The notes below the pieces were generated by a model. The model was not told the DNA's origin, made no database searches, and saw only the letters and a list, made by a program, of their open reading frames with translations. DNA of 64,000 nt. It comes from Capitulum mitella. Its lineage: Eukaryota > Arthropoda > Thecostraca > Pollicipedomorpha > Pollicipedidae. Made by a program: the position numbers and the translations under genes. The stretch covers positions 22,137,201-22,201,200 of the forward strand of contig CP099846.1 in the NCBI GenBank assembly GCA_030062745.1. Direction: 5' to 3'. Below are positions 211 to 64,000 of the stretch, piece by piece; position 1 is the first letter of the stretch, and each line of letters starts with the position of its first letter.

Positions 211-3200
211 CTGTCAACAGAAACAGTGCGACCTTACACCAGGGACGTCACGGGCGTCACGAGTAGCCTACTTCAGAAGAGGAACATGATTTTAGGCCTC
301 TAATCATGTTAGTGGTCGATTCTGCCACTGTATTCTCCTTACAAGCTTGGAAGCAATGCATCTGCAGTATGACAAGCGTTCAGTGTCGAAGTGTCATGGC
401 TGTAAGAGTTTTCGAAAATTAACTCTCCAAACAAGATCAGTTTAATCCCAATGAAATCTACTCCGTCATAGACTGATCTGTTTCAAGTATTTGACAACGA
501 TTTTGATAACAAATACGGTTTTGGTTTGCCTAGTAGGCCACAGAGCCATCCAGCAGGGCTGTGCACGTTCTCATAACCGCTGCAGTCTCGAACCTCTGCT
601 GACCGATGACTGGGATTTTCGCGCACGTGCCCATTGGCTCCACCCATCCTGCGCCCGGACCCACCGACAGCGAAGTGGTGATGAGAGAGAGCCGTGTAGT
701 GGACTTCCTTGATGTGAATCAGCTGCTGCCAGGACAGCGGCAGCGACTCCTGGACAGATGGTGCCGCCATCTGCTCCCTCAGCCTGTGGTACACTTCTGA
801 CACCTGGCGGCGGTAAGATGAGTTATTGCCCCGCCAGACGTTTTGGGGTGCTCGTCAGTCATGAATTTTCCGATAGGCGCTGATGCAGCATTCAACCCAC
901 ATTCGGCGGCACCCAGCATTTCAAACAGCAATCAAATCCGCATCATCCAAGTTTTGAACATCCCATATTTTGGGCGTGACGATCTGGGCCGAGATCCTCG
1001 CTGGTCGGTTCCAGGACGGGCAGCTCACCTGGGCCGCCTCCTGCCCAATGTCCAGCTGAGCGCTGAGGTCCAGCTTCTCGGCGGGCAGCAGCAGCTTCTC
1101 CAACAGGCACTCCTTGGCCTGGGCCAGCAGCAGGTTGGCCAGCACGTCCAACACGTCCGGGTCCAGGTCCCGACTGGGTGCGTTCGAAAAGTTCTCCAGA
1201 ATATACCTGAGGTGGAAAACAAACATACACGTCATGCTCGGGACGTAGCAAACACCCCAAAACGACCCAACACCCTAACCAAAAAAAACTTACGTCACCA
1301 CGACTGAAAGCAAAGAAAAAGACATTTAAAAACGGCGTTTTCTTCGTTTTGGGCAGTATGCACCGTCTGTGGTCCGTCCGGGCTTCCCTTGTGAGTGTTC
1401 TGTGAGTTGATCTCACCGGTAGATGCCGGCCGCTCTCAGGTAGCTGTCGACGGCGCTGTCCAGCCCCTCCTGGGAGCTGCGATCCTGCCGCGCCGCCAGC
1501 TGGCTGTACAGCGCGGCCATGTTGAACAGCACGGACGCCTTCTCGAAGGCGACCGTGCGCTGACAGCTGGGCAGGCCCGTCAGAGAGTCGTACCTGGGGA
1601 TGGACGGGAGATGTCAGCAGGTCGTACCTGGGGATGGACGGGAGATGTCAGCAGGTCATACCTGGGGATGGACGGGAGATGTCAGCAGGTCATACCTGGG
1701 GATGGACGGGAGATGTCAGCAGGTCGTACCTGGGGATGGACGGGAGATGTCAGCAGGTCATACCTGGGGATGGACGGGAGATGTCAGCAGGTCATACCTG
1801 GGGATGGACGGGAGATGTCAGCAGGTCATACCTGGGGATGGACGGGAGATGTCAGCAGGTCATACCTGGGGATGGACGGGAGATGTCAGCAGGTCATACC
1901 TGGGGATGGACGGGAGATGTCAGCAGGCCATACCTGGGGATGGACGGGAGATGTCAGCAGGTCATACCTGGGGATGGACGGGAGATGTCAGCAGGTCATA
2001 CCTGGGGATGGACGGGAGATGTCAGCAGGTCATACCTGGGGATGGACGGGAGATGTCAGCAGGTCATACCTGGGGATGGACGGGAGATGTCAGCAGGTCA
2101 TACCTGGGGAGGGGCGGGAGATTGGAGGGAAACTGCTTTTTGAAAGTTAATTCAGCCACTAAAAAAAATGGTGACCCGACCGCATAAAAGATTCCATGGC
2201 AAACGCACTCAGGATGAAGTCGCAGAAAAAGGAGCAAACGGTTCTTCTTGGCATTCGACGTTGTCGAAGCAACACAGAAAGTTCGGTTAATGTGCTCTTA
2301 CTCAGGGAATCGGACCCAGCTAAATCACTCCGACAGGTTATTGACGGAAGACATGGCCACATGGCAGTGCAGGCAAAATCAGCGTTTGGTAAATATGACC
2401 ATTAAAGGAAATACTCATTAAAATAGTAATGTAGTAACATATAATGGTAGTATGGGAACACTAGAAAGCCCACGATCGAAAAGCGGCAAACTTTGTAAAA
2501 AAAGAAAAGAATGGTTGCAGGGAACCATTCATGTTAAGACACACTTTTCCTCCTTTTAAAAGGAACAAGTCAGCCCTTTCAATCGCAAACCACTCGACTG
2601 CAATACTGAGGTAGAACTTGCACGAGTCCTCGTCAATTTTCCTATCTAAGTGCCATCGTTAGCAAACACATATTTTTTGGTTGGCGGTCATGTCATATGA
2701 GGTGGCTCCGTTACACTGGAGGACACCGGTTCTACAGGCGATTGTTCCATGTCAACACACGAGAACTTCGCGCACGCTACATGCAGTAGCACATGAAGCA
2801 TAGTGATCGGTCATGTCTTAGTATCGCATGTGGTAACCTGAAACCTCCCCTATAACAAAATCTGCGTATTTTCTAAGTTATGATACGATACAGTGCTGAG
2901 CTCAGCATTATTATAACACCTTATGCATGCATTACTAGCATTCTGCTCTTGATATCAAAATTAAAGACCATAAGAACTAGGATATCCTAATTTTCGGCAT
3001 CAGGAGTTATTTTAGGCGTCTGAACGAAGAACAGTTACCATTCCCCATTACCCATCTTTTTACGGTCTATCCGGCGGGCGCCTCATTAACGCTCGTGCGT
3101 TCTGTAATCGCGGCCTCGTTGAAGGACAGTCAGGTCCGGGACGACCACATTCCGCGCACGCTCGACGCCGGCACAGCGCGGCGCCCGCAGCCGGATGAAG

Positions 3201-6200
3201 ACGGAATAACAGGTCTGCAGCGGGCCGAGCGCCGTCGCCGCGGCGCCACACACGCTATCGAGCTCCGACGGAGAGAGCTTTGGTCAACAGCGGTCGAACT
3301 GGGATGGCCGCACCAGCGGTCGGTTAGACACCAGGTCTGCCCGCTGCCAGGGTCCGACGGTCAACACGGGTAGGCTAACACACCGTGACTGGGCAATCAG
3401 GACCTATCAGGTGCCGTCTGAAACGGGGAAGACATGCACTGGTGCGGGCCCTCAGGAACGACTTTTTCTTCTTCTCAGGGGGGAGTAGAGGAGAGTGTGA
3501 CAACTTTGTATGGTGACGGACTGTCGGAACTTAGGAGAGGATTTGCTTGTTGGGGCCGATGGTACCAGGTTTGATGGGCGTGAACCAAAGAACTGGACTT
3601 GCTGCGTGGGACTGACAGGGACGGAATCACAAATCTCCCAATGCGGACATGGGTTAGCGGAATGTTCGGTGGTCTTTACTTATTGTATATTCTTTATTTC
3701 CTGTACAGAACTTTATGATTTATATTCGCACGTATTGGGGTGGCCGATGCGTGCCAAACTGAAATGAACACAAGGCGGAGGATGTCCTTCTCGCGGTCCA
3801 CCCCTCTGGACCTTCCTCTGGCAGCCGATGGAACCGGTACAGAACAGGGTTCGGTCTCAACCAGGAGGGGCTGGCGTGGATCCGGTGAAACGAGCTTGGT
3901 CCAGTGTTAAACCGTCACGACTCGGTGAGTCCGGCATGGGCCGCTGGGACAGCGTGAGTTCCGCGTGGGACCGGCGGAACTAGGTGGGTGCGGCGGATCC
4001 TGAGCGAGCTCAGTTTCATTTCATCGGGACCTGATGGAAGGGACCGGTAGAGCCTGGTGGGCCCGGTGTAGGACAGATGATGCCCGGTGGGCGCGGTGTG
4101 GGACCAGTAAGACCTCGTGGGTCCGGTAAGGGAACCTGATGGGTCCGGTATGGTGATACCTGATGGGTCCGGCGTCGGACCAGTGACACCTGGCGGGTGC
4201 GGTGCGGGACCGCTGGGACCCGACGGGTCCGGCGCACCCGGGGCAGAACGGAACAAACACAGCCGTCTCCCACGTCACGGCCGTCCACTGTCGGCGATGG
4301 CCGCACGCACCGCCGCCCACCGCCGGCCGGCACCAATCAAGCCGGCCAACCGCCATGAAAAGTGAAATCGGACACTTTCCGGCGCGGCGCGTGGGGAGAG
4401 GACAGTCCGGCCGGCCGAGCCCCTCCCCCCCGTCGCGTGCTCGGCTGCTGTTGGGGACAGCTGCACCGACCGCCGCCGAGCCGCCGTCACCGGTCATTAT
4501 CGCTGCCGCCGGGTGACGTCACAGACCGGATGTGGCCCGCGGATGATCCATCCCGAGAAACGGACGCGTCACCAGCCCTGACGGCGGGAGCAGAGGCAGC
4601 GGCGCGGGGGCGAGCCGCCCGGCGAAAGGCGGGGGCGCTCCCTCCCCGGCGGCCGCAGGTCTCCTCAAGTCTCCTCAAAACAACGCGCCGAAACGACGGA
4701 GGCGTTCCTTGGCCCCGCCAAATTACGTGAGGGAGAGGCGGAGTGCTGGCGCCTGGTGACGCCACGCCCAGTGAGCGGGACAGCCGTCTCAAGGAGTCCG
4801 GAGTCAACAGAGCGGTCTCTTGTGCGGGTCTCTCGTGCGCAGGTGCGGGCGATGCGGCCCTGGCCGGGCGGCGTCACTCACCACTCGAAGTGGATGCCGA
4901 GGCTGCGGTCCGGCGGGAAGAACCGTCTCTCGATGAAGTACAGCTGGTTGTAGTACTCGAACAGCAGCGCCAGTCCGGTCTGGTTGCGCTGCGGCGTCCT
5001 CATGGCCTGGGGACGGAGGGTCCGGCGTGTCACACGGCCCAACGGCACAACAAACACAGACAGACTGGTAGGTCGGAGAGGCGATTTGGTTACAAACAGT
5101 AAAACCTGTCTCCAGATGGCGTGTTCAGAATTTCAAACGGCTTGCCCGCAGTCTCACGGCACTGAATAGCCCTAGGTGCTCTCATATCTTTCAAAGGACG
5201 CTTCACCCATAAACCAGTTTATTGGTTCGACTTCTTCGATTGCATTGCGCTTCTGCACTGTTGGTCATGATGGCTTTCTCTTGTGCACTCATGATCTTGA
5301 GCTCACATACTTGATTAGTTTTCATTGCTTGCCATATCTAAAAATACCAGCGGCCATGACAAAATGTGAAAATTTCTAGTATGACTTCTGTTAAAGATGA
5401 TGGTTTCTGATAGCCATAAGTATGCATCTCACAATCGCTTCAGTAACCATCATCCCTATACTGCGACTGCATTGTTCCGTTACTGGTAGATGAACCTTTT
5501 CGAACGGCGCTGCTTCGTGGATCGATACCAGTTACTTTATCAGTGTCCAGGCCTGTTGACCTTTCACGTCGTAAACGATCTCCACTGTCATATGCCACAT
5601 GAAGCTTAAAGGAGCTCAATTTGGTCTGACGACTTCGTCGCTTTTAGATTAAAAAAGTGGCGTCAGCATTCATTAAAATGTTTCGTTCAAAAAATGTTTC
5701 TTCGTGTGAAATGTTCCTAATTTAAAGAAGTTAACCTTGTTCTTTGCAGCACGCCACGGTTGAAGAGTCAAAAAACACACGGATAAGCGTGGGAAGGCAC
5801 CGGTTTCCTATCAAACAATGGGTCATTTATGAGTCACGGCGGCCACCTTTTGACAGGCGGGATTGACTTAGGCACGAACGACCTTTACGCTCTGTGATGG
5901 ACAACGCTGACGCGCTCGCAGACAGACATGCCGCGAGCATTCAGGCCAAAGGTCTTGATGAAGGGGATCCAGGAGCGCCGAAACAATGGCGCTGGCGGTT
6001 TTCGCCCGTCTTCACGACGCGGGAAAGTAAGCCATAACGTTACCAATCAGTCTGAGATCGGTTTCCGAAACAATGTAACTGCGACTACGCCGTATGGTCT
6101 TTTGACGAATGGGTTGACTTTCCAAGATCGGAAAACAGGCCTTGAGGAAATAATATTTTTGGCGCCATGACGGACTTATCCATCGAAATCTTTCTCGTGT

Positions 6201-9809: not shown

Positions 9810-12054
9810 CTGCGACAGAACACAGAGCTCGTCAGAGGACAACCTCATCCACGACGCACATCCGCGTCATGTTTCCCATCTCCACGCGAAGAACAAGAAG
9901 CAGCATAACAGAAGGAAATGCATGATCAAGTTTTCCAAGAGCAAACTGATCTGCGGGTTCTCAACACTTTTCTACAAATCACGTCAGCTCAACGATCCGC
10001 CACTCGTGACACACAGTTCGTTGTTCTCATATGGCGTATCTGGAGGACAACGTAATTATCAGAAGTGGTAATTCAGTGCAGACAGGAAGCTAAACGACCA
10101 ACTGAAGGCAATTAGATGGAGTCATTAATCGCCGCGTCTAACAGGCTGAGCGGCATCTGTCTAATTGTCGCGTTAATGATCAGCCGGAAGCCATTTCACG
10201 CCCCCACTGACTGAAAGACGATCTCGTTTTAATCGGGGGCGAAGTGGGCTAACGCAGGCAGGCCCGGCTCGGCGGCGGCCGGCCGCGACACGCCCGGGCC
10301 GCAGTTACGGCGCCGGAGCCGCGACCTCTGCAGGGCCGCCAGTTATAATGAGACGCCCGCCGCGCCGCAGCAGGCACGGCTCGCCGGCTCAGTCAGTGGG
10401 GAGGTCACGGCACCCCCGGTCGGCGCATTGCGTAACGACCGCCCGTCCTGGCACGTGCTGCCGTGCAGAGACCGCTCCACCGCTGGAGGTGGAGCCGTCT
10501 GCTCCACCGCTGTCCAGAGTCTGCCCCACCGCTGCACCTTGGTCTTGGTGGACAAAACAACGTCGGTGAACAGTCAAGATCCAGTGCAAAACGACGGCTG
10601 ACTTTATTTGAGATAAAGCTGACGGACCGAATGGCGAATGGCTCGACAACGGCAAACAAAACAAGCGACACCGACAGGCCCGACACGAACAAAACTGGCC
10701 AGACGGATTGGCTCGACACCAGCAAACAGAGCTGTCGAAGCCGACTGCCCCGACCCTGGCGTACAGCGCGACCCGAGCGCGCCCGCTCGGGGTGTCGATG
10801 GCCACGCAGCGGCGGCAATCAGCCACCATTGTTCCTTTGTTTCGGAGCGCCGGCGGGCGGCAATTTTCGAGGCGGCGTCTCGAAGGCAGCCGCTGGCGCA
10901 ACTGTTCGGCCGGCTCGGACGCGGCCGAATGTAGGCCGGCCGACACCGGCGGCCGGCCGCGCCCCGCTGCCCGGAGAAACTGCCGACACCGAGCGCCGTC
11001 GAGCCGGACCAGATCCATAACCGTCCTCCGCCGCGCGGCAAAACGATCGGCCAATCAATAAGGCCGTTAACAGCTTACCGGCGGATGGTGGCGCGGTGAA
11101 ATCAACCTGACGCCCGGAACGGTCATCGGGCTATATCCCGCCGCGCCCATGCCGCCGTCAGTGATTTCCGCGTTCGTGCCCACAGGCGGACAGTCCGGCC
11201 GACGCGAGGGCTTCAGAGTAATGTTGACAAGACTCGCAAGGCTGGGCAGTCTTGTGCCTGGGGCTAGCCGGCACTGATCGACCAAACAGCAGCGTCGGCC
11301 CGGGTACTGAGCTGGTGCCGGGCGTCACCGCCTGACAGACAGTCTGGTGCAGTGGTGCAGCCTGGTGCAGCGGTGGACGAAATACGGAAGACAGCGGGCG
11401 ACACTAACGTGCATTCAGCAGGTCACACTCGCACTGTGAGAGCAAGGTGTGACTGCATTTCTACGTTTATGATCTCTTTGTTCTTTTGTCATCTACACAT
11501 GCAAACTCCACAATGCATTTTGTAACTTTGTGTCGGTTAGAACGCTGAAAATATGAGCTTCCAGGGGTATTTCGGGCAGTATTTTCCATCCTCTGCTATG
11601 ATAAGACGCTGTATGTGAATTTAATAGTTCCGAAACAACATGAAACATTGCAGCACATTTGGGAAACTTATTCTGACATTCCTAAAATCTGGCTAACAGT
11701 CAGGTTGTCTGTACAAAATATCTAAATGAAATGATTTAAAGCAATTGCTTGGCAGCCGTGAAGCGTACTGAGCAAGTTAAAATCATGTACCATATACTGT
11801 GATGATGGTTTTCTCAATATTGACAAAGCTTACGATAAGGTGCCTCAAATATTGTTCCACGAGACATAAAAACAAAAGCACGACTTTCGCAGAAAATCAC
11901 GGCAAAAGTGATGTGCAGAGGCGATCTCGAACGCAACGAAATATCGGTTTCTCAAAGTACCATAATGAATAACAAAGTTTTCCAACAAATTAGTTGAATG
12001 TACTGGTCTAAACTGCTTCCTCGCTCTTACTAATGTAATTTTATCACGTTTCAG
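9810..12054. promoter_or_regulatory. spacer between divergent genes with GC/CpG island at about 10.24-11.29 kb
   Basis: The stretch 10240-11290 is strongly GC-rich and CpG-dense, with many CCGGCC/GGCCGG steps. Rhophilin runs left from here and the EFHC1-type gene runs right, so the island is a candidate shared promoter and first-exon region. I could not identify the rhophilin start exon or the EFHC1 upstream exon in it. The stretch 11.4-12.05 kb is AT-rich and leads into the splice acceptor before EFHC1. No TATA box is assigned. Confidence 0.4.
12024..12054 (+). promoter_or_regulatory. splice acceptor just upstream of the EFHC1-type start codon
   Basis: A tactaat branch-point consensus is followed by a T-rich stretch and gtttcag ending at 12054, one base before ATG 12056. 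This is close to an ideal 3' splice site. It implies an upstream exon, either 5' UTR or a short N-terminal coding exon joined in phase. Confidence 0.7.
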
Positions 12055-12055
12055 A

Positions 12056-13909
12056 ATGCTACAGTTTTCTGGAAAAGACCCCTCAAAAATAAGGTTCGGA
12101 AGGAGTCAGCTATGCGGATTCAAAAACGGCTACAACTTCGTGGGCCATGGTGGGCCGCTGAGCTGCGCAGACTCTGCTCCCGGCCTGGAGGGAATGCTAG
12201 ATGAGCTAGCTAGCCACGATCCCATCCTTACCTACGGCGACCCCAAATGTAAGCGTGGACCAAAAACCAGATTCGTTCCATCGTACGTTGCTTACGACAA
12301 GAAAGTCTTGAAATTTTTGGCATACTTCAAGCAAACGACTCCCAATTCCCAGGAAGAAAAGTATCGCATTAGGTTCGTGAATATTCTTTATTTCCTGGAG
12401 GACGACACAATCTGCATCATGGAACCAAACGTCGATAACTCGGGCATACCTCAGGGCAAGCTTCTCCGTCGCCACCGCGTCCCCAAGAACGACGCCGGTG
12501 AATACTACCACTGGAAGGACTTTGACGTGCAAAACGATGTCTGCTTCTACGGCCTCTACTACCACATCTTCGACTGCGACCCGTTCACGCGACAGCTGTA
12601 CGAAAGTGAGGGCATTGACCTCAGACCCGGGGAGCCGGTGGAGTCCATCCCAGAGGATCCGTACATCCACGATCGCAAGATGCGCCTGCGGCCGCACACG
12701 TACGTGACGCCGTCGCAGTGGGACAAGCTGAGGCAGTTCCTGCACATGGACCGACAGGTGCTCAGGTTCTACGTCGTCTGCGACGACCGCGACGAGCTGT
12801 ACGGCGAGCTGAGGAAGTACGTGTTGCTGTACTACCTGGCAGACGACACGATCGAAATCCTGGAGGTGCACGAGAAAAACGACGGGCGAGACCCGTTCCC
12901 CTGCCTGTTGAGGAGAATGAAGGTGCCCAAGAAGTTGCGTCACTCACTGTTGTTCCCTTCCATCTCCACAGAGATCTCCCCCACGGAGGTAAAGGAATGG
13001 TTCCTGGACACCGATCTGAAGATAGGCGAATCCGTTTGCATTTTCAACAAGCGTTTCCTGATTTACGACTGCGACGAGTTCACCAAGAACTACTACCGAA
13101 AGAACTATGGCATCACCGACTTCACTCCCATTGACGTCTCCCGAAGAGCGCAAGGCTTAGAGAAGAAAGTGGCCCAGCCACCGCCAAACCCGGAGCCGCT
13201 GGTTCTCAAAACGCCCGCAAAGGACTACATGAAGTACCTGGAAAACGACGGCATCGTTCTCCGTTTCGAAGGCGTGCTGGAGTCCCTAAAGCCATACCAT
13301 CGCGAGCGACGTTTTATTATCTCTTACTACCCATCCGACGACACCATTTCCATCTACGAGCGCGTGCTGCGCAACTCGGGAGTCATCGGCGGCAAGTTCC
13401 TGCACCGCATGAAGGTGGAAAAACCGGAGAGCACCAAGGAGCACCCCGTCTACTTCACGCTGCGCGACTTCTGCATCGGCGCCACGCTGCAGATGTACAA
13501 CCACCGCTTCAAGATCGTCAACGCCGACCGGTTCGTGCTGACGTTCCTGGAAGCGAACCCTTGCGGCTTGGAGGGCACCATCGCCAGCCTGAACCAGTTC
13601 TTCCAGGCGCACCCCGCGCCGCAGCCGGTCTGCACGCCGGAGGAGGGTGCCGACAGCGATGAGCGGGCCCAGGCCGCCGCGGCCGGCCTCGAGGTCCGCG
13701 AGGTCTCCATGATACCCGACATGAGTCAGCCCAGCTACAGGTCACCCGTCGAGATGTACCTCGACGAGAGGAACAAAAAGGAGGCGGAGATCGAGCAGAA
13801 CAAGGCCAGGGCGGACAGCATGGCCCAGATCTGCTCCGACCTCAAGGAGAAGACGCTGGCGCCGAAGAAGGTGACCTTTTGCGAGGATGCCGTGCAGAAA
13901 TGCAATTGA
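12056..13909 (+). CDS. EFHC1: EFHC1-like axonemal protein with three DM10 domains, uninterrupted 617 codons
   Basis: EFHC1/EFHC2 proteins are microtubule inner proteins of ciliary and flagellar doublets. Three DM10 domains are visible at about residues 84-187, 231-354 and 399-503, each with the family pattern: an opening VLRF/VLKF, a middle strand YFLEDDTI, YLADDTI or YPSDDTI, and a basic GKLLRRHRVPKND-type block. NSGIPQGKLLRR and NDGRDPFPCLLRRMKVP are near-diagnostic for EFHC1-type proteins. Residues 565-600 are charged and helix-prone. Human EFHC1 (about 640 aa) ends in an EF-hand region; no EF-hand loop is visible here and the protein stops at KVTFCEDAVQKCN. The coding part is one uninterrupted exon although its neighbours are split into small exons, suggesting a retrocopy or intron loss. 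The frame is intact over 1.85 kb, so it is probably functional. ATG 12056 follows an acceptor, so a few N-terminal residues may come from an upstream exon. Confidence 0.92.
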   Translation: MLQFSGKDPSKIRFGRSQLCGFKNGYNFVGHGGPLSCADSAPGLEGMLDELASHDPILTYGDPKCKRGPKTRFVPSYVAYDKKVLKFLAYFKQTTPNSQEEKYRIRFVNILYFLEDDTICIMEPNVDNSGIPQGKLLRRHRVPKNDAGEYYHWKDFDVQNDVCFYGLYYHIFDCDPFTRQLYESEGIDLRPGEPVESIPEDPYIHDRKMRLRPHTYVTPSQWDKLRQFLHMDRQVLRFYVVCDDRDELYGELRKYVLLYYLADDTIEILEVHEKNDGRDPFPCLLRRMKVPKKLRHSLLFPSISTEISPTEVKEWFLDTDLKIGESVCIFNKRFLIYDCDEFTKNYYRKNYGITDFTPIDVSRRAQGLEKKVAQPPPNPEPLVLKTPAKDYMKYLENDGIVLRFEGVLESLKPYHRERRFIISYYPSDDTISIYERVLRNSGVIGGKFLHRMKVEKPESTKEHPVYFTLRDFCIGATLQMYNHRFKIVNADRFVLTFLEANPCGLEGTIASLNQFFQAHPAPQPVCTPEEGADSDERAQAAAAGLEVREVSMIPDMSQPSYRSPVEMYLDERNKKEAEIEQNKARADSMAQICSDLKEKTLAPKKVTFCEDAVQKCN

Positions 13910-56783: not shown

Positions 56784-57774
56784 TTCCGATGCTCCGCCGA
56801 AGAGGTGGCCCTTTCCATGAGGTGGACTCGGACCTGCTGAGTGCCGCCGCCTCCGATGATGAGGATCCCTCCGATAGGATCTCGTGGTCGGAGACCCAGT
56901 CGTCGCCGTCGCTGAGCGGCGGCGCCGCTCCGGGCGATGGCCCGGCCGCCGTGGAAGGCGCCGCCCCGCCGGCCGCGGGGGACCGCGCACCGCTCTCGCG
57001 GTCCGTCGACAGCTGTCCCGAGGCCGGCGACGCGGCCGCCTCGCCCGTGCTGGGCGTGACGCTTGCGGCCGCGGGCGGTCCGGAAGACCACGGCGCCGGC
57101 CGACGCGCCGCTCCTCCCGGACAGCCAGCCGTCGCCGGTGCTGCGCCGCGGCCGCCGGGGGGCGCCGCTGCCGTCCGCGGCCGGCCCCCGGTCCGGGCGG
57201 CGTGTCGGGGCAGGGAGCCGCGGCCGGCCTCAGTCCGCCGGCGGTTACGGCTCGCTCCGCTCCCCCGTGCTGGGGCCTGCGCGGCGCCGGAGGGCGGCCG
57301 ACCGGGCCGACCCGGCGCCGCCGCCGCCCGCTGGCGGCCGGGTCTCGCCCGTGCTCGGCGCGTCTCCCGTCATAGAGCGGCGGTGGTGCGGCCGGCGGCG
57401 GCGCGGCGCCGCGGCGGACCGGCCTCCGGCCAGCGGTGGACAGCAGCCGGCCGCGGCCCGCCCGGCGGCGGCAGGCGCCCGGCCCGGGGCCGAGGGCGGG
57501 GCCGGTGCGGCGGCTGTTCCCGCTGCCGGAGCCGGTCTGCGGCCAGGGCACGCCGCTGGCCGGCCTCAGCGCGTCCGGGGCGGCAGCCGATGCCGGCCGG
57601 CTGCCGCCGTATGAGCCGACCGGACCGGCCAAGCGCCGGCGCGCCCAACCCGACCTGTGCGAGGACCTGCGGCGGCGGCCCGAGCAGGAGAGCGTGCCGA
57701 CCGTGTCCAGCCAGGAGCGGCGCCGCTGGCTGCGGCACGTCACCGGCGCGCACGACGAGCCGCCGCAGCCGACG
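56784..57774 (+). CDS. SPIDR: SPIDR-like exon 1 of those visible (N-terminal region), frame changes inside
   Basis: The acceptor is ttgcctttcag and the donor CCGACG|gtgcgt. ATG 56789 opens an acidic start (FHEVDSDLLSAAASDDEDPS). An SPVL motif recurs at 57041 in one frame and at 57132, 57261 and 57345 in the next; the end (AKRRRAQPDLCEDLRRRPEQ to HDEPPQPT) is in the third frame and joins exon 2 in phase. Two indels, sequence errors or unseen micro-introns are needed. Extremely GC- and CpG-rich. A preceding exon is likely because an acceptor directly precedes the ATG. Confidence 0.6.
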
Positions 57775-60700
57775 GTGCGTGGAAGGGCGGTCATAGTCGG
57801 GCAGCTATTAGTAGGGATGTCTGGATTGATTTTTCACGTGCCTTCTTGAACAGGCACTTTGTATCCTGCGCATGAACATACGGAGAAGAGAATTACGCCT
57901 TAACACGGCTACAGGCGTGCAATATATGCTAAATACTGTTATATATAGGATATGGTGTGTGTTCCGACTTGTAGGTGTACGGTTTGATCTCCGGGCCGAT
58001 TCAGTGATTCGGGATGTCTGTGACATTGGCGACGCCAGCGGCCGCCCTTCAGCTCGGATCCTGTTGTCAGGTGGGGGAGCAGCGTGCCTCCGATTGGCTG
58101 CGACAGATCCGGCGCACCGAGGTCACGCCGGAGAAGACGGCCGCCGAGCCGGAGGTGCCGCCCTCCGCCAGGAAGGCGCAGCCCAAGCGGTCAGTGGTGG
58201 GCGGCGCCACGCCGTCGGTGGACCGACCCGCTGGCAGGGACGGTACTGGCTCTTGCGACACGACCTAGAACTAAAGCTTGTGGAACAGTGCTATGGATCC
58301 AGTCGCCCTTGGCGTGTGCCGCTCTCGGTTTTGTGAACGTTGAACCGCAGGCGACCCCGTGGTCTCCTGTCGGCTGCCCTGATGGCCACATGGCGGGTCG
58401 TCCTGAGCCACCACCTTCGGTCGTCGTGAGCTGCCACTGTCGGTCATCCACAGCCACCACTGTCGGTCTTTCCGACTGCTGCCACTGTCGGTCGCCCTGA
58501 GCCGCTACTGTCGGTCGTCCCGAGCCGCCACTGTCGGTCGTCCTGAGCCGCCACTGTCGGTCGTCCTGAGCCGCCGCCGTCGGCCGTCCTGAGCCGCCAC
58601 TGTCGGTCGTCCCGAGCCGCCACCGTCGGTCGCCCTGAACCGCCAGTTAATTGTTTTGAGTTAATCTGCCGACCGTCGTATGTCCCCACTGTCGGCCATC
58701 CTCTTAAATCACCGTCTGAGTCTGAGTTCTGAGCTCTGTCGACCACCGTGCGTGCCGCTGTCAGCTGTCGTGTGCTGTAAATGTCGGCCGCCGACAGGCG
58801 CGGTCTGGTGCAGAAGCTGCGCCGTCTGCTGAAGCGAAGGGAGGCCTTCGCCCGCATGAGCCGACACACGAGCGGCCCCGGCGCGGACGAGGTAACTGTC
58901 CGGGATCTGCCGCCGCTCCTCCGCGTGTCCCGGAGACGGCGGCGGCGGCGGCCAACCCAGCGTAGCTCTATCCCAGGCTTTCTGCCGGCTGTAAACAGCA
59001 AGCAGTGAGTCCCGGGCTGTTGAAGTTGACGTAAATGCTGCGTACTAGGTACGGAGCGACAGGCGGCGCTGGTGGTCGTCTGGAGGTCATTTCTGCCGAC
59101 GGTGGCCTGTTCTGGTGTAGCTCGTTCGTCGCTTGTGTAACCAGTCCGCGCCGATGACAGGCTGGCCTGCTTGCAGGCGACGCTCTGTGTCTGTGCCGAG
59201 CGCTGTGAACAGCAGGCCGGCGCTCTGATGGTGCTGGGACGGACGGCCAACCTCGGCCCCGTGCAGGTGGTGCTGTCGAGTGGCTCGACCCACACCGCCG
59301 CTTCCCCCGGCGACAGCCTGCTGCTGTACCCGCCCTGGTCAGTCTCTTGCTGTTCTTGTCCTGGTCGGTTTCCTGCTGTACCCGTCTGGGTCATTGCAGT
59401 GTCTGCCTTGGTCAGTCTGTTGTACCTCCCCTGGTCGGTCTGCCGTACCTCCTATGCTCAGTCTGGTGTACCTGCCCTGGTCAGTCTGCTGTACCTCCCC
59501 TGGTCAGTTTGCTGTGTCTCCCCTCGGGCGCGCCCTCGTCATGCTGCGGTTCTTACTATCGTGAGCATTGTTGGAAAAACTGTCGTTTTCTGATGTCAAG
59601 GAGCACCAAAAAATGTATACTCCAAGAAAAATTTTGTACTCCAAATGATCATTTGTCCCCTACCCCCCAAAGACATGGGTATTCCCACTGAACCAGAGTC
59701 TGAAGTTGTCTAGCGTCCCCTTTCCCCCTTCAAGTTGATGGTTTATCGTCCATTCTTAGCTGCTGAAGTACACTCCGAACTCACGGTCAGCCGCCTCCCC
59801 TCCCCCCCGGTCAACGACTCCGGAGACCTACCATGTAGACCCAGGAAACTGGTTTGCCTCTCAAAGGAGCCACTGGATCCGTCCCTGCTGGCCACATATG
59901 CTTGCAAAGCACCTAGTTAGTCCATGTTTCTCATATAAACACATGACATTTTATACTCCAAAAGAGAATTTGTGCTCCGACACCAGCAAGAAAAACCAGG
60001 TTTCCAAAACTGATCGTGAGTCTTCTGTACCTGTCCTGACAGTCTTCTGTACCTGCCTTGGACAGCCTGCGGCCCTGGTCTGCTGCCCTACCTACCGTGG
60101 CCAGTCTGCCAGCGTGCCCGCCTGGCCCAGGTCGGCTGTGCTGACAGAAGCCTCTGTGTTCGAGCAGGCAGCGGCTGCAGGTGGAGCGCGGGCCGCCGGT
60201 GCTGCTCCCTGTAGGAGGAGTCTGCGTTCAGCCAGGACCGGCCCCCGACCCCGTCCCGGCCCGAGTGGTGCTCTTCACCTGCCCCTGCCCGCCAGGTCTG
60301 TGGAACTGTCGATAGGCGGGCGTCTTTTGGATTGGGTAGCCAAAACGGGATGTACATGTGGTAGGTGTGCTTTATTTTTTGTGCAGTTATTATGTGTGTA
60401 CAGTCCATGGCGCGAAGGACATTGCCCTGCGTTTAAGTTACTGCGTCACTTCATGTGATGAGAAGAGTACTGTTGCGATTCCCGACTGAAGAATTGCACG
60501 GCCACCCTCAGACGCTCCGCTGCCTCGAGTGTGTCTGAGACCCCTGCCGCAAATGGATCCGAAGCCGGAGGCTTCTACCCAGAGCCATCTAACGACCGTC
60601 CGTGAAGCCTCGTTTCCGGGGTGTCCGCCGGATGGCAGCACGGTGCTGGCAGCTCTCGGCTGCGGTGGCGACGTGGTCAGACCCGTGGAGGCGACTGTGC

Positions 60701-63700
60701 GCCACGTCTGCCAGTATCGGTGGGTCTCCCGTTACAGACTGACCGTCTGACTCCGGATGAGTGCTCTGAAAAGGGAGTGCTGATGTTGGGCTGTGGGATA
60801 GTCTTTTACCTCATTTTTACTGACTTAGTACGGGTCTTCTTTCTACAACTGCTCTCCACCGTGCGACTAAGAGCTACTGTGACCACCGTGGTGACTGCCG
60901 CCGCCGCCGGGTGACCGATCGGCGGATTGACGCGCGGCGTCCGCGGCCCGCCAGCTGCCCGGCCGACAGCCAGACCTCGGACGGGGCCGAGGACGAGTGG
61001 TGCTGGTCGCTGCTGGTGGTGGACGGCGCCGGCACGCTGGCCGAGCTGGTGGTGCCGGCGGCCGTGATGCGGCCTGTGCGCCACCTGTGCAGACCGGACC
61101 GGCGGCTGCGGGTCTCTGGTCTGGTGGTCAGGGAGAGGACCACCAGCGACAGGTCAGTCCTGCAGGGAAGGGAACCACCAGTGATGGTTCAGTCCTGCAG
61201 GGAGGGGACCACCAGCGACAGGTCAGTTCGGCAGGGAGAGAACCACCAGCGACATGTCAGTGCTGCAGGGAGAGAACCACCAGCGACATGTCAGTGCTGC
61301 AGGGAGGGAACCACCAGCGACATGTCAGTGCTGCAGGGAGGGGACCACCAGTGATGGGTCAGTCCTGCAGGGAGTGGACCACCAGTGATGGTTCAGTCCT
61401 GCAGGGAGGGGACCACCATTGATTATCTAGTTCTGCAGAAAGGAGACCTTAAAAGTCAACCCTGCAGGGAGAGGTCCTAAACTTTGTAGTGTCCGGAACA
61501 TTGCAGTCCTTCATTTTGCCTAAATATTGGTACAGAATATGAAGCGGCGATAAATTCTTCTTATGAATATGGTTCTAAATTCTGGTCTACACTGGCAACG
61601 GCCTCAGAGATTATTCTTAAATACGAGACAATACGGATTGCACCGTGACGGAAGATCAGTTGTGTTGTTTTGAATTGCTGTGTGGTAGGGTTGTGTGAGA
61701 TGAGTATTGCATGGTTAGGGCTTGAGAGTCTAACGTTGTTTATAAGGAATAGCATGCGTGTGTGTTCGGTATCGGGGAAATGTGCGCGCCACTAATGTGG
61801 AAGATGTATGTAAATGGCGGTCCCTGTGGAATATTTCTGTTCTTGTCCATTGTCATGTGATGTGAAGTGTTTTGTGTTTTGCCACCAGGTGTCCTGCCCT
61901 GGCCAGCATGGTGCTGGCCCTGACCGGGGCCGATCCGGGCTTCACCTACGTGCTGCAGGCGCTCCCCGGCGAGACCAGAATAACGTTGCTGCCGGAGGCC
62001 GACTGTCCACCTGCGCAGCCCGCGGGCGGCGACCTCCGCTCGACGGCGCCCGACCCGCCATCTGCCGACGGCCGCGTGAACCTCGAGTGCCGCCTGCTGT
62101 CGCCGCTGTCCGGGACGGCGCTGGTGCTGACCGCGGATGGCCCGCGGCCCGTGACGCTGGAGCCGGACGCCGGCCTCCTGCTGGCGCCCGGGGAGGACGC
62201 CGAGCTGCGCCACGTCTGGCGGCGACAGGGCCGCCTACTGCTGGACAGGTGAGCTGACCGCTACTGCTGGACAGGTGAGCTGACCGCTGCTACTGGACAG
62301 GTGAGCTGACCGCTACTGCTGCACAGGTTAGCTGACTGCTGCTGCAGAGGTGAGCTGAACGCTACTGCTGGACAGGTGAGCTGACTGCTGCTGCCGGACA
62401 GGTGAGCTGACCGCTACTGCTGGACAGGTGAGCTGACCGCTGCTGCTGGACAGGTGAGCTGACCGCTACTGCTGCACAGGTTAGCTGACTGCTGCTGCAG
62501 AGGTGAGCTGAACGCTGCTGCTGGACAGGCGAGCTGACTGCTGCTGCTGGACAGGTGAGCTGACCGCCGCTGGACAGGCGAGCTGACTGCTGCTGTTGAG
62601 TAGATGAACTGTCAACCTTATTTCTGTGCGCCAACATGATTTCTTGCTTTACACCATCCAGGCATTGTTGCAAAGCCCGTGTTATGTGCAAGTTTGTAAA
62701 ATGGGCACTGTTATGGCAGTAAGTCCAGAAAAGTTAAATCCACGATTTTCCACAGAGATCGTAAAAGTTATTTTACATTATTTTACGGATTTTTCGGTCG
62801 GTGCCGACTGTGTATGCTAATTTCGGCTTGTACTTATGTACGCAGGGGAATGCAAGAAATCTTTTACTTCAGAAAGCTGTAAGTTTCACCAGAAACTGGG
62901 TGACAGATTTGAGTATGATCGAACATTTTGTAATGCCTTGTAACAAGACATAGACGCTAAACGTTATTTATTGCTACAATCATTCCAGTGGCGTTATTTA
63001 ATCCCATAACAGCCTAGAGAGAGAACTCCCCAGTCACCGTGTGCCATTGCACCATCCCCATCCACATGTGGATCGCAGCTCTTTTGCGACATGTTGTACA
63101 ACTTTATTTCGAAAGCTGGAGCACCACTGCCCGGAATGGATCTGCCAGGCAAGCTCCATTAGGCTAGATTTGCCAGATTTTTTCCTAGCAAGTGAGCCTT
63201 GAGGAAAGTTACCACGACTGCTGTCGTGTTCCTTCGTTTTGCGGGGACATTGTGCGTGGACGTGCAGCACAAGAGCTGTGTGGCCGCACAGGTGGTCGCA
63301 GTTCTGGTTTTGCCGCTCTGTCTGGCAGGAGCCGTTTTTAGTGGTCCTGACACCGGCAGATTCACACCACCATCCGTCGCTCCCTGATGTGCGGACCTCT
63401 GTCGCCAGGTACAGGATTCCTGAGCGGCGCGGCAGCCTGGTCCTGGTCGTGGTCCCGCCGCCTGCGGTCCCCTGACGTCCGGTCCCCTGTCGCCAGGTAC
63501 ACGGCTCTGGAGCGGCGCGGCAGCCTGGTCCTGGTCCTGCTCCCGCCGCCTGCGGTCCCCTGACGTCCGGTCCCCTGTCGCCAGGTACACGGCTCTGGAG
63601 CGGCGCGGCAGCCTGGTCCTGGTCCTGCTCCCGCCGCCTGCGGTCCCCTGACGTCCGGTCCCCTGTCGCCAGGTACACGGCTCTGGAGCGGCGCGGCAGC

Positions 63701-63873
63701 CTGGTCCTGGTCCTGGTCCTGGTCCCGCCGCCTGCGGTCCCCTGACGTCCGGTCCCCTGTCGCCAGGTACACGGCTCTGGAGCGGCGCGATGACCTGCTC
63801 CTGCCGTCGCCGGCCGCGCCGCTGCCGCCCATCACCGACGCGGTCGAGCCGCCGCAGCTGGTCTGTCTGTCAG
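56784..63873 (+). CDS. SPIDR: SPIDR-like DNA-repair scaffold, 9 exons, partial at 3' end
   Basis: SPIDR is a nuclear scaffold that links BLM helicase and RAD51 in homologous recombination. Exons are 56784-57774, 58071-58189, 58798-58891, 59177-59337, 60168-60295, 60512-60719, 60955-61152, 61889-62248 and 63767-63873; the phase works at every join if exon 1 is read in the frame it ends in. Matches to the vertebrate family include an acidic ISWSETQSSPSLS segment, PEKTAAEPEVPPSARK then RGLVQKLRRLLKRREAF, CAERCEQQAGALMVLG, LLLYPPWQRL followed by PPVLLPVGGV, CPPDAPLPR, and the OB-like core WSLLVVDGAGTLAELVVP. The gene continues beyond the window. Exon 1 changes reading frame internally. Five splice junctions carry tandem repeats. 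Family assignment comes from remembered family motifs, not a search. Confidence 0.72.
58071..58189 (+). CDS. SPIDR: SPIDR-like exon 2
   Basis: The acceptor is ctgttgtcag and the donor AAGCG|gtcagt. It encodes VGEQRASDWLRQIRRTEVTP then EKTAAEPEVPPSARKAQPK, phase 0 in and phase 2 out. The basic and proline-rich stretch parallels the segment before the conserved GL--RL helix of SPIDR. Confidence 0.7.
58410..58650. repeat. 23-bp minisatellite in intron 2
   Basis: About ten units are built on cactgtcggtcgtcctgagc. Unlike the other arrays in this gene it does not touch an exon and does not obviously copy a splice junction. Confidence 0.85.
58798..58891 (+). CDS. SPIDR: SPIDR-like exon 3
   Basis: The acceptor is cggccgccgacag and the donor GACGAG|gtaact. 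One leading base plus 31 codons: RGLVQKLRRLLKRREAFARM then SRHTSGPGADE. It corresponds to the conserved GL--RL--L--RE--A helix of SPIDR. Confidence 0.75.
59177..59337 (+). CDS. SPIDR: SPIDR-like exon 4
   Basis: The acceptor gcctgcttgcag was chosen because it restores phase (an AG 16 bases upstream would not). It encodes ATLCVCAERCEQQAGALMVL and later SPGDSLLLYPP; final TG joins G of exon 5 to form the Trp of the conserved PPW. The donor is gtcagt, copied repeatedly in the following intron. Confidence 0.75.
59338..59525 (+). repeat. 23-bp array at the donor of intron 4
   Basis: About eight diverged units follow exon 4 directly. A good copy reads gtcagtctgctgtacctccc then ctg, so each unit repeats the last exon bases (tgtacccgccctg) and the donor (gtcagt). 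Related units appear again at about 60015-60075. Confidence 0.8.
59530..60167 (+). other. SPIDR-like intron 4, remainder
   Basis: It holds two copies of the tactccaaaa dispersed repeat (59603-59650, 59950-59990) and further diverged donor-repeat units at about 60015-60075, then the acceptor cgagcag. Confidence 0.6.
60168..60295 (+). CDS. SPIDR: SPIDR-like exon 5
   Basis: The acceptor is gtgttcgagcag and the donor CCGCCAG|gtctgt (weak beyond GT). It encodes QRLQVERGPPVLLPVGGVCV then QPGPAPDPVPARVVLFTCPC. Together with exon 4 it rebuilds the family pattern PPWQ-L--P-G--PV. Confidence 0.72.
60512..60719 (+). CDS. SPIDR: SPIDR-like exon 6
   Basis: The acceptor is ggccaccctcag and the donor TATCG|gtgggt. 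G of exon 5 plus AC gives Asp, so the junction reads CPPDAPLPR, matching a conserved CPD-PLPR motif of SPIDR. It ends VRPVEATVRHVCQY. The acceptor is moderate and was selected by phase and homology. Confidence 0.65.
60955..61152 (+). CDS. SPIDR: SPIDR-like exon 7 (OB-like core)
   Basis: The acceptor is cggcccgccag and the donor GCGACAG|gtcagt. It encodes DGAEDEWCWSLLVVDGAGTL, AELVVPAAVMRPVRHL and RLRVSGLVVRERTTSD, a beta-rich pattern like the SPIDR segment preceding its 'RGRT' loop. In phase with both sides. Confidence 0.75.
61153..61435 (+). repeat. 34-bp array at the donor of intron 7
   Basis: About eight 34-bp units begin at the donor. A typical unit starts gtcagtgctgcagggagaga and ends accaccagcgacat. 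The unit repeats the last 15-20 bases of exon 7 (gaccaccagcgacag) followed by the donor gtcagt. Confidence 0.9.
61436..61888 (+). other. SPIDR-like intron 7, remainder
   Basis: Unremarkable AT-richer sequence ending in the acceptor tttgccaccag. Confidence 0.6.
61889..62248 (+). CDS. SPIDR: SPIDR-like exon 8
   Basis: The acceptor is gttttgccaccag and the donor CTGGACAG|gtgagc. One base plus 119 codons: CPALASMVLALTGADPGFTY, YVLQALPGETRITLLPE, RLLSPLSGTALVLTADG, DAELRHVWRRQGRLLLD. Single open frame with protein-like composition; in phase with exons 7 and 9. Confidence 0.75.
62249..62600 (+). repeat. 26-bp array at the donor of intron 8
   Basis: About 14 units of 26 bp (some 23 bp) begin exactly at the donor. 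Each reads gtgagctgaccgctactgct then ggacag, so it contains a copy of the exon end (ctactgctggacag) joined to a donor; a few copies have gttagc or gcgagc instead of gtgagc. Confidence 0.95.
62601..63390 (+). other. SPIDR-like intron 8, middle
   Basis: AT-richer sequence without a recognised exon or RNA gene. Confidence 0.5.
63398..63766 (+). repeat. 88-bp array at the acceptor of intron 8
   Basis: Acceptor copies (ctgtcgccag|gtac) occur with exon-like starts at 63409, 63497, 63585 and 63673, then the true exon 9 at 63767; spacing is 88, 88, 88 and 94 bp. Each unit repeats the exon start (gtacacggctctggagcggc) and then about 60 intron-like bases containing a TGA in the exon frame. Confidence 0.95.
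63767..63873 (+). CDS. SPIDR: SPIDR-like exon 9
   Basis: The acceptor is cctgtcgccag and the first usable donor TGTCAG|gtgggt. It encodes YTALERRDDLLLPSP, PLPPITDAVEPPQLVCLS. The frame stays open through the following 33-bp array to the window edge, so the exon may be longer. Confidence 0.65.
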
Positions 63874-64000
63874 GTGGGTCACCGCCGCAGCTGGTCTGTC
63901 TGTCAGGTGGGTCACCGCTGCAGTTGGTCTGTCTGTTAGGTGGGTCACCGCTGCAGTTGGTCTGTCTGTCAGGTGGGTCACCGCCTCAGCTGGTCTCTCT
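63874..64000 (+). repeat. 33-bp array at the donor of exon 9, runs off the window
   Basis: Units start at 63874, 63907, 63940 and 63973 (the last is cut by the window end). Each reads gtgggtcaccgccgcagctg then gtctgtctgtcag, i.e. donor plus a copy of the last 23 exon bases. Thirty-three bases equal 11 codons with no stop in the exon frame. Confidence 0.95.

Follow-up and report, generated by a model that had tools for sequence, protein, structure and literature searches.

Six splice junctions in a 64,000-nucleotide stretch of the genome of the barnacle Capitulum mitella (contig CP099846.1 of assembly GCA_030062745.1; hereafter the window) lie in tandem arrays whose repeat unit contains the splice site together with 11 to 25 adjoining exon bases, as delimited by Tandem Repeats Finder (TRF). 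These junctions, four donors and two acceptors, belong to two genes, one for rhophilin and one that we tentatively identify from sequence matches as SPIDR-like. We think it likely that the arrays are splice-junction-spanning minisatellites of the kind known in amphioxus as mirages, in which ordinary repeat turnover was seeded across junctions that already existed. At the junctions open to such a test the intron seems to predate its repeat, and for this reason we regard the arrays as decorating introns rather than creating them.

The first-pass annotation of this DNA had proposed that an array starts or stops at each of the six junctions. TRF confirmed an array at every one of them, but placed its edge 11 to 25 bases inside the exon and not at the junction itself. 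The accompanying claim, that the unit holds the splice site plus a copy of the adjoining exon bases, stood throughout: all six units span the exon-intron boundary. Unit length ranges from 23 to 88 bp, and at the rhophilin R5 acceptor the unit is made of 19 intron bases (ending CCCCAG) followed by 15 exon bases (GTAYGAC...CTGAC). Each array covers only part of its intron, intron H-I carries a different array at each end, and the array at the exon I donor continues 74 bp beyond the end of the window (Table 1). As first described, the junction reads AG/GT in five of the six cases, the exception being TG/GT at 59337. The AGGT motif was kept at 16/16 copy sites in the R5 array, at 5/5 for the exon I acceptor, 4/4 for the exon I donor and 12/14 for the exon H donor, and at 2/8 for the exon G donor; among the exon D donor copies AGGT was found in 0/8 and TGGT, the sequence of the junction itself, in 6/8. 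Many array copies scored on a par with the used site when judged by a small matrix built from 12 array-free donors.

Table 1. Modelled exons and junction-spanning arrays, numbered from the first base of the window.
Feature	Position	Strand	Basis and details
Rhophilin exon R5 (BRO1 domain, YDSLTG...AGIYR)	1417..1593	-	BRO1 profile 90-150, frame, spliced alignment
Array at rhophilin R5 acceptor	1579..2122	-	TRF, 34 bp x16
Rhophilin exon R4 (ends ...GIHFEW), donor side of the array-bearing intron	4882..5006	-	BRO1 profile 43-91
SPIDR-like exon D, donor TG/GTCAGT	59177..59337	+	In frame with E; weak DUF4502 across D/E
Degenerate array at exon D donor	59314..59524	+	TRF rows 59314-59393 and 59409-59524 merged; 26/23 bp
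SPIDR-like exon G, donor AG/GTCAGT	60955..61152	+	Frame joins
Array at exon G donor	61129..61418	+	TRF, 34 bp x8.5; unit of 24 exon and 10 intron bases
SPIDR-like exon H, donor AG/GTGAGC	61889..62248	+	Frame joins
Array at exon H donor	62238..62595	+	TRF, 26 bp x14; higher-order period 153 bp
Array at exon I acceptor, far end of intron H-I	63382..63789	+	TRF, 88 bp x4.6
SPIDR-like exon I	63767..63873	+	Frame joins
Array at exon I donor	63849..64000	+	TRF, 33 bp; in frame with the exon

The units at different junctions had also been called unrelated, which proved largely but not wholly correct. Of the 15 possible pairs, 11 gave a shuffle P of at least 0.05, whereas four fell below 0.05, mostly through the splice consensus, and the H-donor and I-donor units could be aligned over 25 columns. 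When the genome (477 Mb in 16 contigs) was searched with the array at 62238-62595, only four weak partial matches were found elsewhere. These differing units and sparse matches, together with the recurrence of the pattern in three kinesin genes described below, bear out the earlier view that we are dealing with a recurring process and not with one repeat family. Near-identical inner copies and a higher-order periodicity at 102 and 153 bp fit turnover within the arrays. From the sequences we infer the following order of events. A short tandem duplication would happen to span a pre-existing exon-intron junction, after which minisatellite turnover (slippage, unequal exchange) would expand and homogenize the array on the intron side only, as growth into the exon would be purged. 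The copies that do not lie next to the exon would then persist as decoys, partly decayed and partly intact.

Two junctions have paralogues against which the age of the intron could be set. On C12, a paralogue of rhophilin with 43 to 83% protein identity between matching exons contains the R4-R5 intron in the same phase (phase 2), at the same FEW/YDSLTG position and with the first 28 exon bases identical. The sequence before its AG differs, there is no array at the junction, and the intron holds only a small unrelated 12-bp array that ends approximately 80 bp upstream of the junction. The other case is a pair of kinesin genes, L037 and L042 (C3:975400-978600 and C3:1035000-1037700), which lie 60 kb apart in opposite orientation and are identical at 370/371 bases of exon 2, with sequence blocks surrounding exon 1 and exon 3 at 94% and 92%. 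Both genes have an intron at the same place after exon 2, where L037 has eight copies of the unit and L042 a single one, that of the junction, relative to a mean of 0.01 copies expected in shuffles. Given that the paralogous intron is present without a junction array, neither the rhophilin R5 intron nor the L037 intron depends on its array. Apart from a stretch near the acceptor, the two kinesin introns cannot be aligned, which would fit homogenization of the exons, and the L042 donor of this intron is GC.

Comparing the two ends of single introns led to a similar result, in that none of the 12 introns tested against shuffles had a significant unit shared between both ends. The arrays had been taken in the first-pass annotation to show intron creation by AGGT duplication. 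Because the paralogous introns lack the array at two junctions and the intron ends share no unit, no gained intron is shown, and we find no support for that claim where it could be tested. No paralogue of the SPIDR-like gene was found, which places its five array junctions outside the paralogue test.

The window was picked because the pattern had been seen there, so enrichment within it is not an unbiased sample. Arrays were found at six of the 31 modelled junctions, 1/16 in the rhophilin gene and 5/15 in the SPIDR-like gene. One null placed each array randomly within its own intron, allowing it to overhang by as much as 30 bp, and was applied to seven intronic arrays; eight arrays entered the free-placement model. 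Sub-periods were merged prior to these counts, and three rows were dropped, at 59608-59644 (19 bp x1.9, interspersed repeat), 57378-57417 (coding) and 63700-63725 (within the array at the exon I acceptor). Arrays between an EFHC1-like gene and the SPIDR-like gene were not used, because by a crude coding score this interval holds little coding sequence. Under the intron-confined null, five of the seven arrays touched an intron end (P = 3.7e-5), and five of the seven overhung the exon by at least 10 bp, relative to 0.34 expected (P = 2.6e-6). Under free placement, the array edge was pinned to a junction in 6/8 cases compared to a mean of 0.43, a result matched in 0/50,000 draws. Two controls argue against enrichment. 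A looser null, in which arrays may cover whole exons and any crossed junction counts, gave a mean of 3.44 against the same 6/8 (P = 0.059). By position, 19.4% of window junctions (6/31) lie in repeats, compared to 19.8% of intron interiors.

The kinesin motor family supplied a second sample. It gave 129 exon matches in approximately 28 gene groups, from which 16 loci were taken for compactness; seven motor-domain queries were placed by splice-aware alignment and defined 75 introns, with doubtful junctions in the L035 and L041 alignments retained. Kinesin arrays were counted at a TRF score of at least 50, which excluded two score-40 contacts in L034. On this basis, only one of 23 arrays overhung an exon by at least 10 bp (1.67 expected) and two touched a junction (2.85 expected), while seven lay over a junction or no more than 20 bp from one (4.04 expected; P = 0.09). 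By a self-similarity measure, 3/150 kinesin junctions fell in repeats versus 7.4% of 5,820 interior positions. As overhang and contact are at chance level, we see no sign of genome-wide targeting, and the proposal that the process marks many introns across the genome finds no support in this small sample. The pattern nevertheless recurs in three kinesin genes that had not been picked for it, at the L037 donor (where the eight copies include the junction), at an L034 donor and at an L039 acceptor, the last with three copies counted by eye.

If the kinesin rate applied to the SPIDR-like gene, a count of 5/15 junctions would hardly be expected (binomial P = 8e-6), and hence this gene is a local hotspot within repeat-rich, G+C-rich DNA. 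The G+C content of the window is 56.5%, with a CpG ratio of approximately 1.05, and 16 unselected 10-kb stretches held 31 arrays, covering 4,566 bp of 160 kb. Arrays that approach a junction and halt were also seen. Several intron arrays in the kinesin loci L030, L035, L039 and L040 stop 7 to 17 bp short of the acceptor and do not cover it, and in rhophilin an intron further along contains a 22-bp array (22.7 copies; L011:7477-7974) whose end appears to lie 17 bp short of an acceptor-like CCTGCAG.

Frame analysis indicated what use of the extra sites would do. All 13 extra H donors brought stop codons and a broken frame, as did all four extra exon I acceptors. Of the 15 extra R5 acceptors, 14 brought stop codons, and the nearest, 34 bp off, produced a frameshift. 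Within the window, all three extra I donors were in frame without stops, and the G copy at 61221 keeps an intact donor, which scores like the used one and would add 69 bp in frame. Since use of most other copies brings stops or frameshifts, we infer that in most of these genes the copy next to the exon has to be the one normally used for correct splicing, and that copy is presumably the working splice site.

These results bear on several other explanations of the arrays. Under the Rogers model, an intron is born through tandem duplication of an AGGT-bearing segment, and the arrays would be the remains or the later expansion of that event. Such births have precedents in the excerpted text of PMC4974935, and one was proposed for amphioxus globins in that of PMC3087553. 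Consistent with this, AG/GT is found at 5/6 array junctions versus 10/25 junctions without arrays (Fisher P = 0.072), and both sites are often kept in the copies. The paralogous introns that lack a junction array, the lack of significant sharing between intron ends, the partial coverage of each intron and the different arrays at the two ends of intron H-I all argue against such an origin, which we regard as very unlikely. Selection could instead keep the arrays, either because extra splice sites provide redundancy or because they supply variation in exon length. This would suit the in-frame I donors and the 61221 copy of G, but the G copies are mostly without a donor, the D copies are degenerate, and stop codons accompany every extra H donor and I acceptor, so that we find maintenance by selection highly improbable.

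A further proposal is that duplication is targeted to junctions, for instance through transcription, R-loops or splice-site sequence, and seeds minisatellites genome-wide. The exon-overhang enrichment in the window, the recurrence in three kinesin genes and the kinesin arrays near junctions all speak in its favor. However, the window was selected for showing the pattern, and in the kinesin sample overhang, contact and the share of junctions in repeats all fall below expectation or below intron interiors, which makes targeting on this scale quite unlikely. That certain genes, such as the SPIDR-like gene, are hotspots where splice junctions nucleate minisatellites in this lineage is a tentative idea that we consider unlikely.

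Ordinary turnover seeded across existing junctions also has observations standing against it. Contact in the window greatly exceeds the intron-confined null, an excess that plain random seeding leaves unexplained, and the seven kinesin arrays near junctions hint at clustering by splice sites. The lowest end-similarity P values among array introns, 0.07 and 0.08, belong to introns G-H and H-I. In addition, an array may have been lost from the L042 intron, and the exon ends are models.

These models rest on the reading frame, the phase and the profile match continuing from one exon to the next. The rhophilin gene, on the minus strand of the window, has profile matches to BRO1 and HR1 domains, and three consecutive exons cover BRO1 model positions 43-91, 90-150 and 151-204, the second of them beginning at the claimed acceptor. 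Rhophilin exons R3-R8 give one open frame when joined, and spliced alignment reproduced R3-R6 exactly and R7 with one end two bases off. The SPIDR-like gene occupies the right end of the window on the plus strand. Its joins B-C, C-D, D-E, F-G and G-H-I are in frame; the E-F join and the donor of the first exon, A, neither of which was placed, were omitted from the junction set. DUF4502 matched the spliced protein weakly across the D/E join (E = 0.12, far under the curated cutoff), and DUF4503 matched in the 10 kb after the window (E = 2.8e-5; 23.2 bits, under the curated cutoff of 27). The two domains together are what we take to be the mark of SPIDR. Single-frame scans of the window gave no Pfam match for SPIDR, and the SPIDR-like protein had no match in PDB.

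Rfam and tRNA scans of the window found nothing. The EFHC1-like gene, on the plus strand, has EF-hand domain-containing protein 1 as its top PDB match (E = 4.5e-150); its protein is encoded in a single open frame of 646 codons (11969-13906), and the adjoining genes have many introns. Viral contigs, when searched for an EFHC1 relative, yielded none. Intron D-E of the SPIDR-like gene includes approximately 450 bp of interspersed repeat (59563-60013), for which 39 of 40 scored matches, from 1211 candidates, lie elsewhere on many contigs at 82-86% identity.

Similar arrays are known from amphioxus. The excerpted text of PMC3087553 describes minisatellite-like duplications of exon-intron boundaries in globin genes, with haplotype differences and a model of intron gain, and takes the name mirages from an earlier case in Adh3; that of PMC3902484 adds PGBD5 and cites troponin C. 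As far as these excerpts go, the barnacle arrays share with the amphioxus mirages (Adh3, BflGb6, BflGb9, troponin C and PGBD5) tandem duplications that span the boundary at 5' or 3' sites, many copies that keep AG/GT and a unit length that differs between loci. Both also show largely unrelated units at different junctions, at donors as well as acceptors. The barnacle case differs in its host, in its units of 23 to 88 bp, in the involvement of five junctions of one gene and in a rhophilin intron whose paralogue lacks the array. Length and somatic instability are reported in the amphioxus excerpts, and the barnacle arrays are known from one assembly; normal splicing would be left undisturbed in an amphioxus-type mirage, a point on which the barnacle junctions were covered by frame analysis. 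The excerpted text of PMC4974935 sets out the AGGT duplication model with cases in ATP2A1, fission yeast SPOG_01682 and potato RdRp. Our arrays share with these a duplicated AGGT segment, including duplication over an intron-exon boundary, and differ in that the paralogous introns at two junctions are without an array and the intron ends are without a shared unit. A literature search on barnacle minisatellites and introns found no paper, and no paper on such arrays in arthropods was among the matches listed in a wider search. This kind of array is thus already known from amphioxus, where it is little studied; within the literature searched, the novelty lies in the host and in the paralogue test.

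Amphioxus mirages have been proposed as a road to new introns, and here the same anatomy is found in an arthropod genome. Paralogues provide a direct test of order, separating a repeat grown on an old junction from an intron born from a repeat. If certain genes in this lineage were indeed hotspots, their splice sites would lie in fast-changing arrays, exon ends such as that in the in-frame 33-bp exon I array could lengthen or split between individuals, and these genes would be a constant source of new splice sites in an animal that is not a cephalochordate. Junction arrays can be used to mark splice-site decoys that are young and possibly variable.

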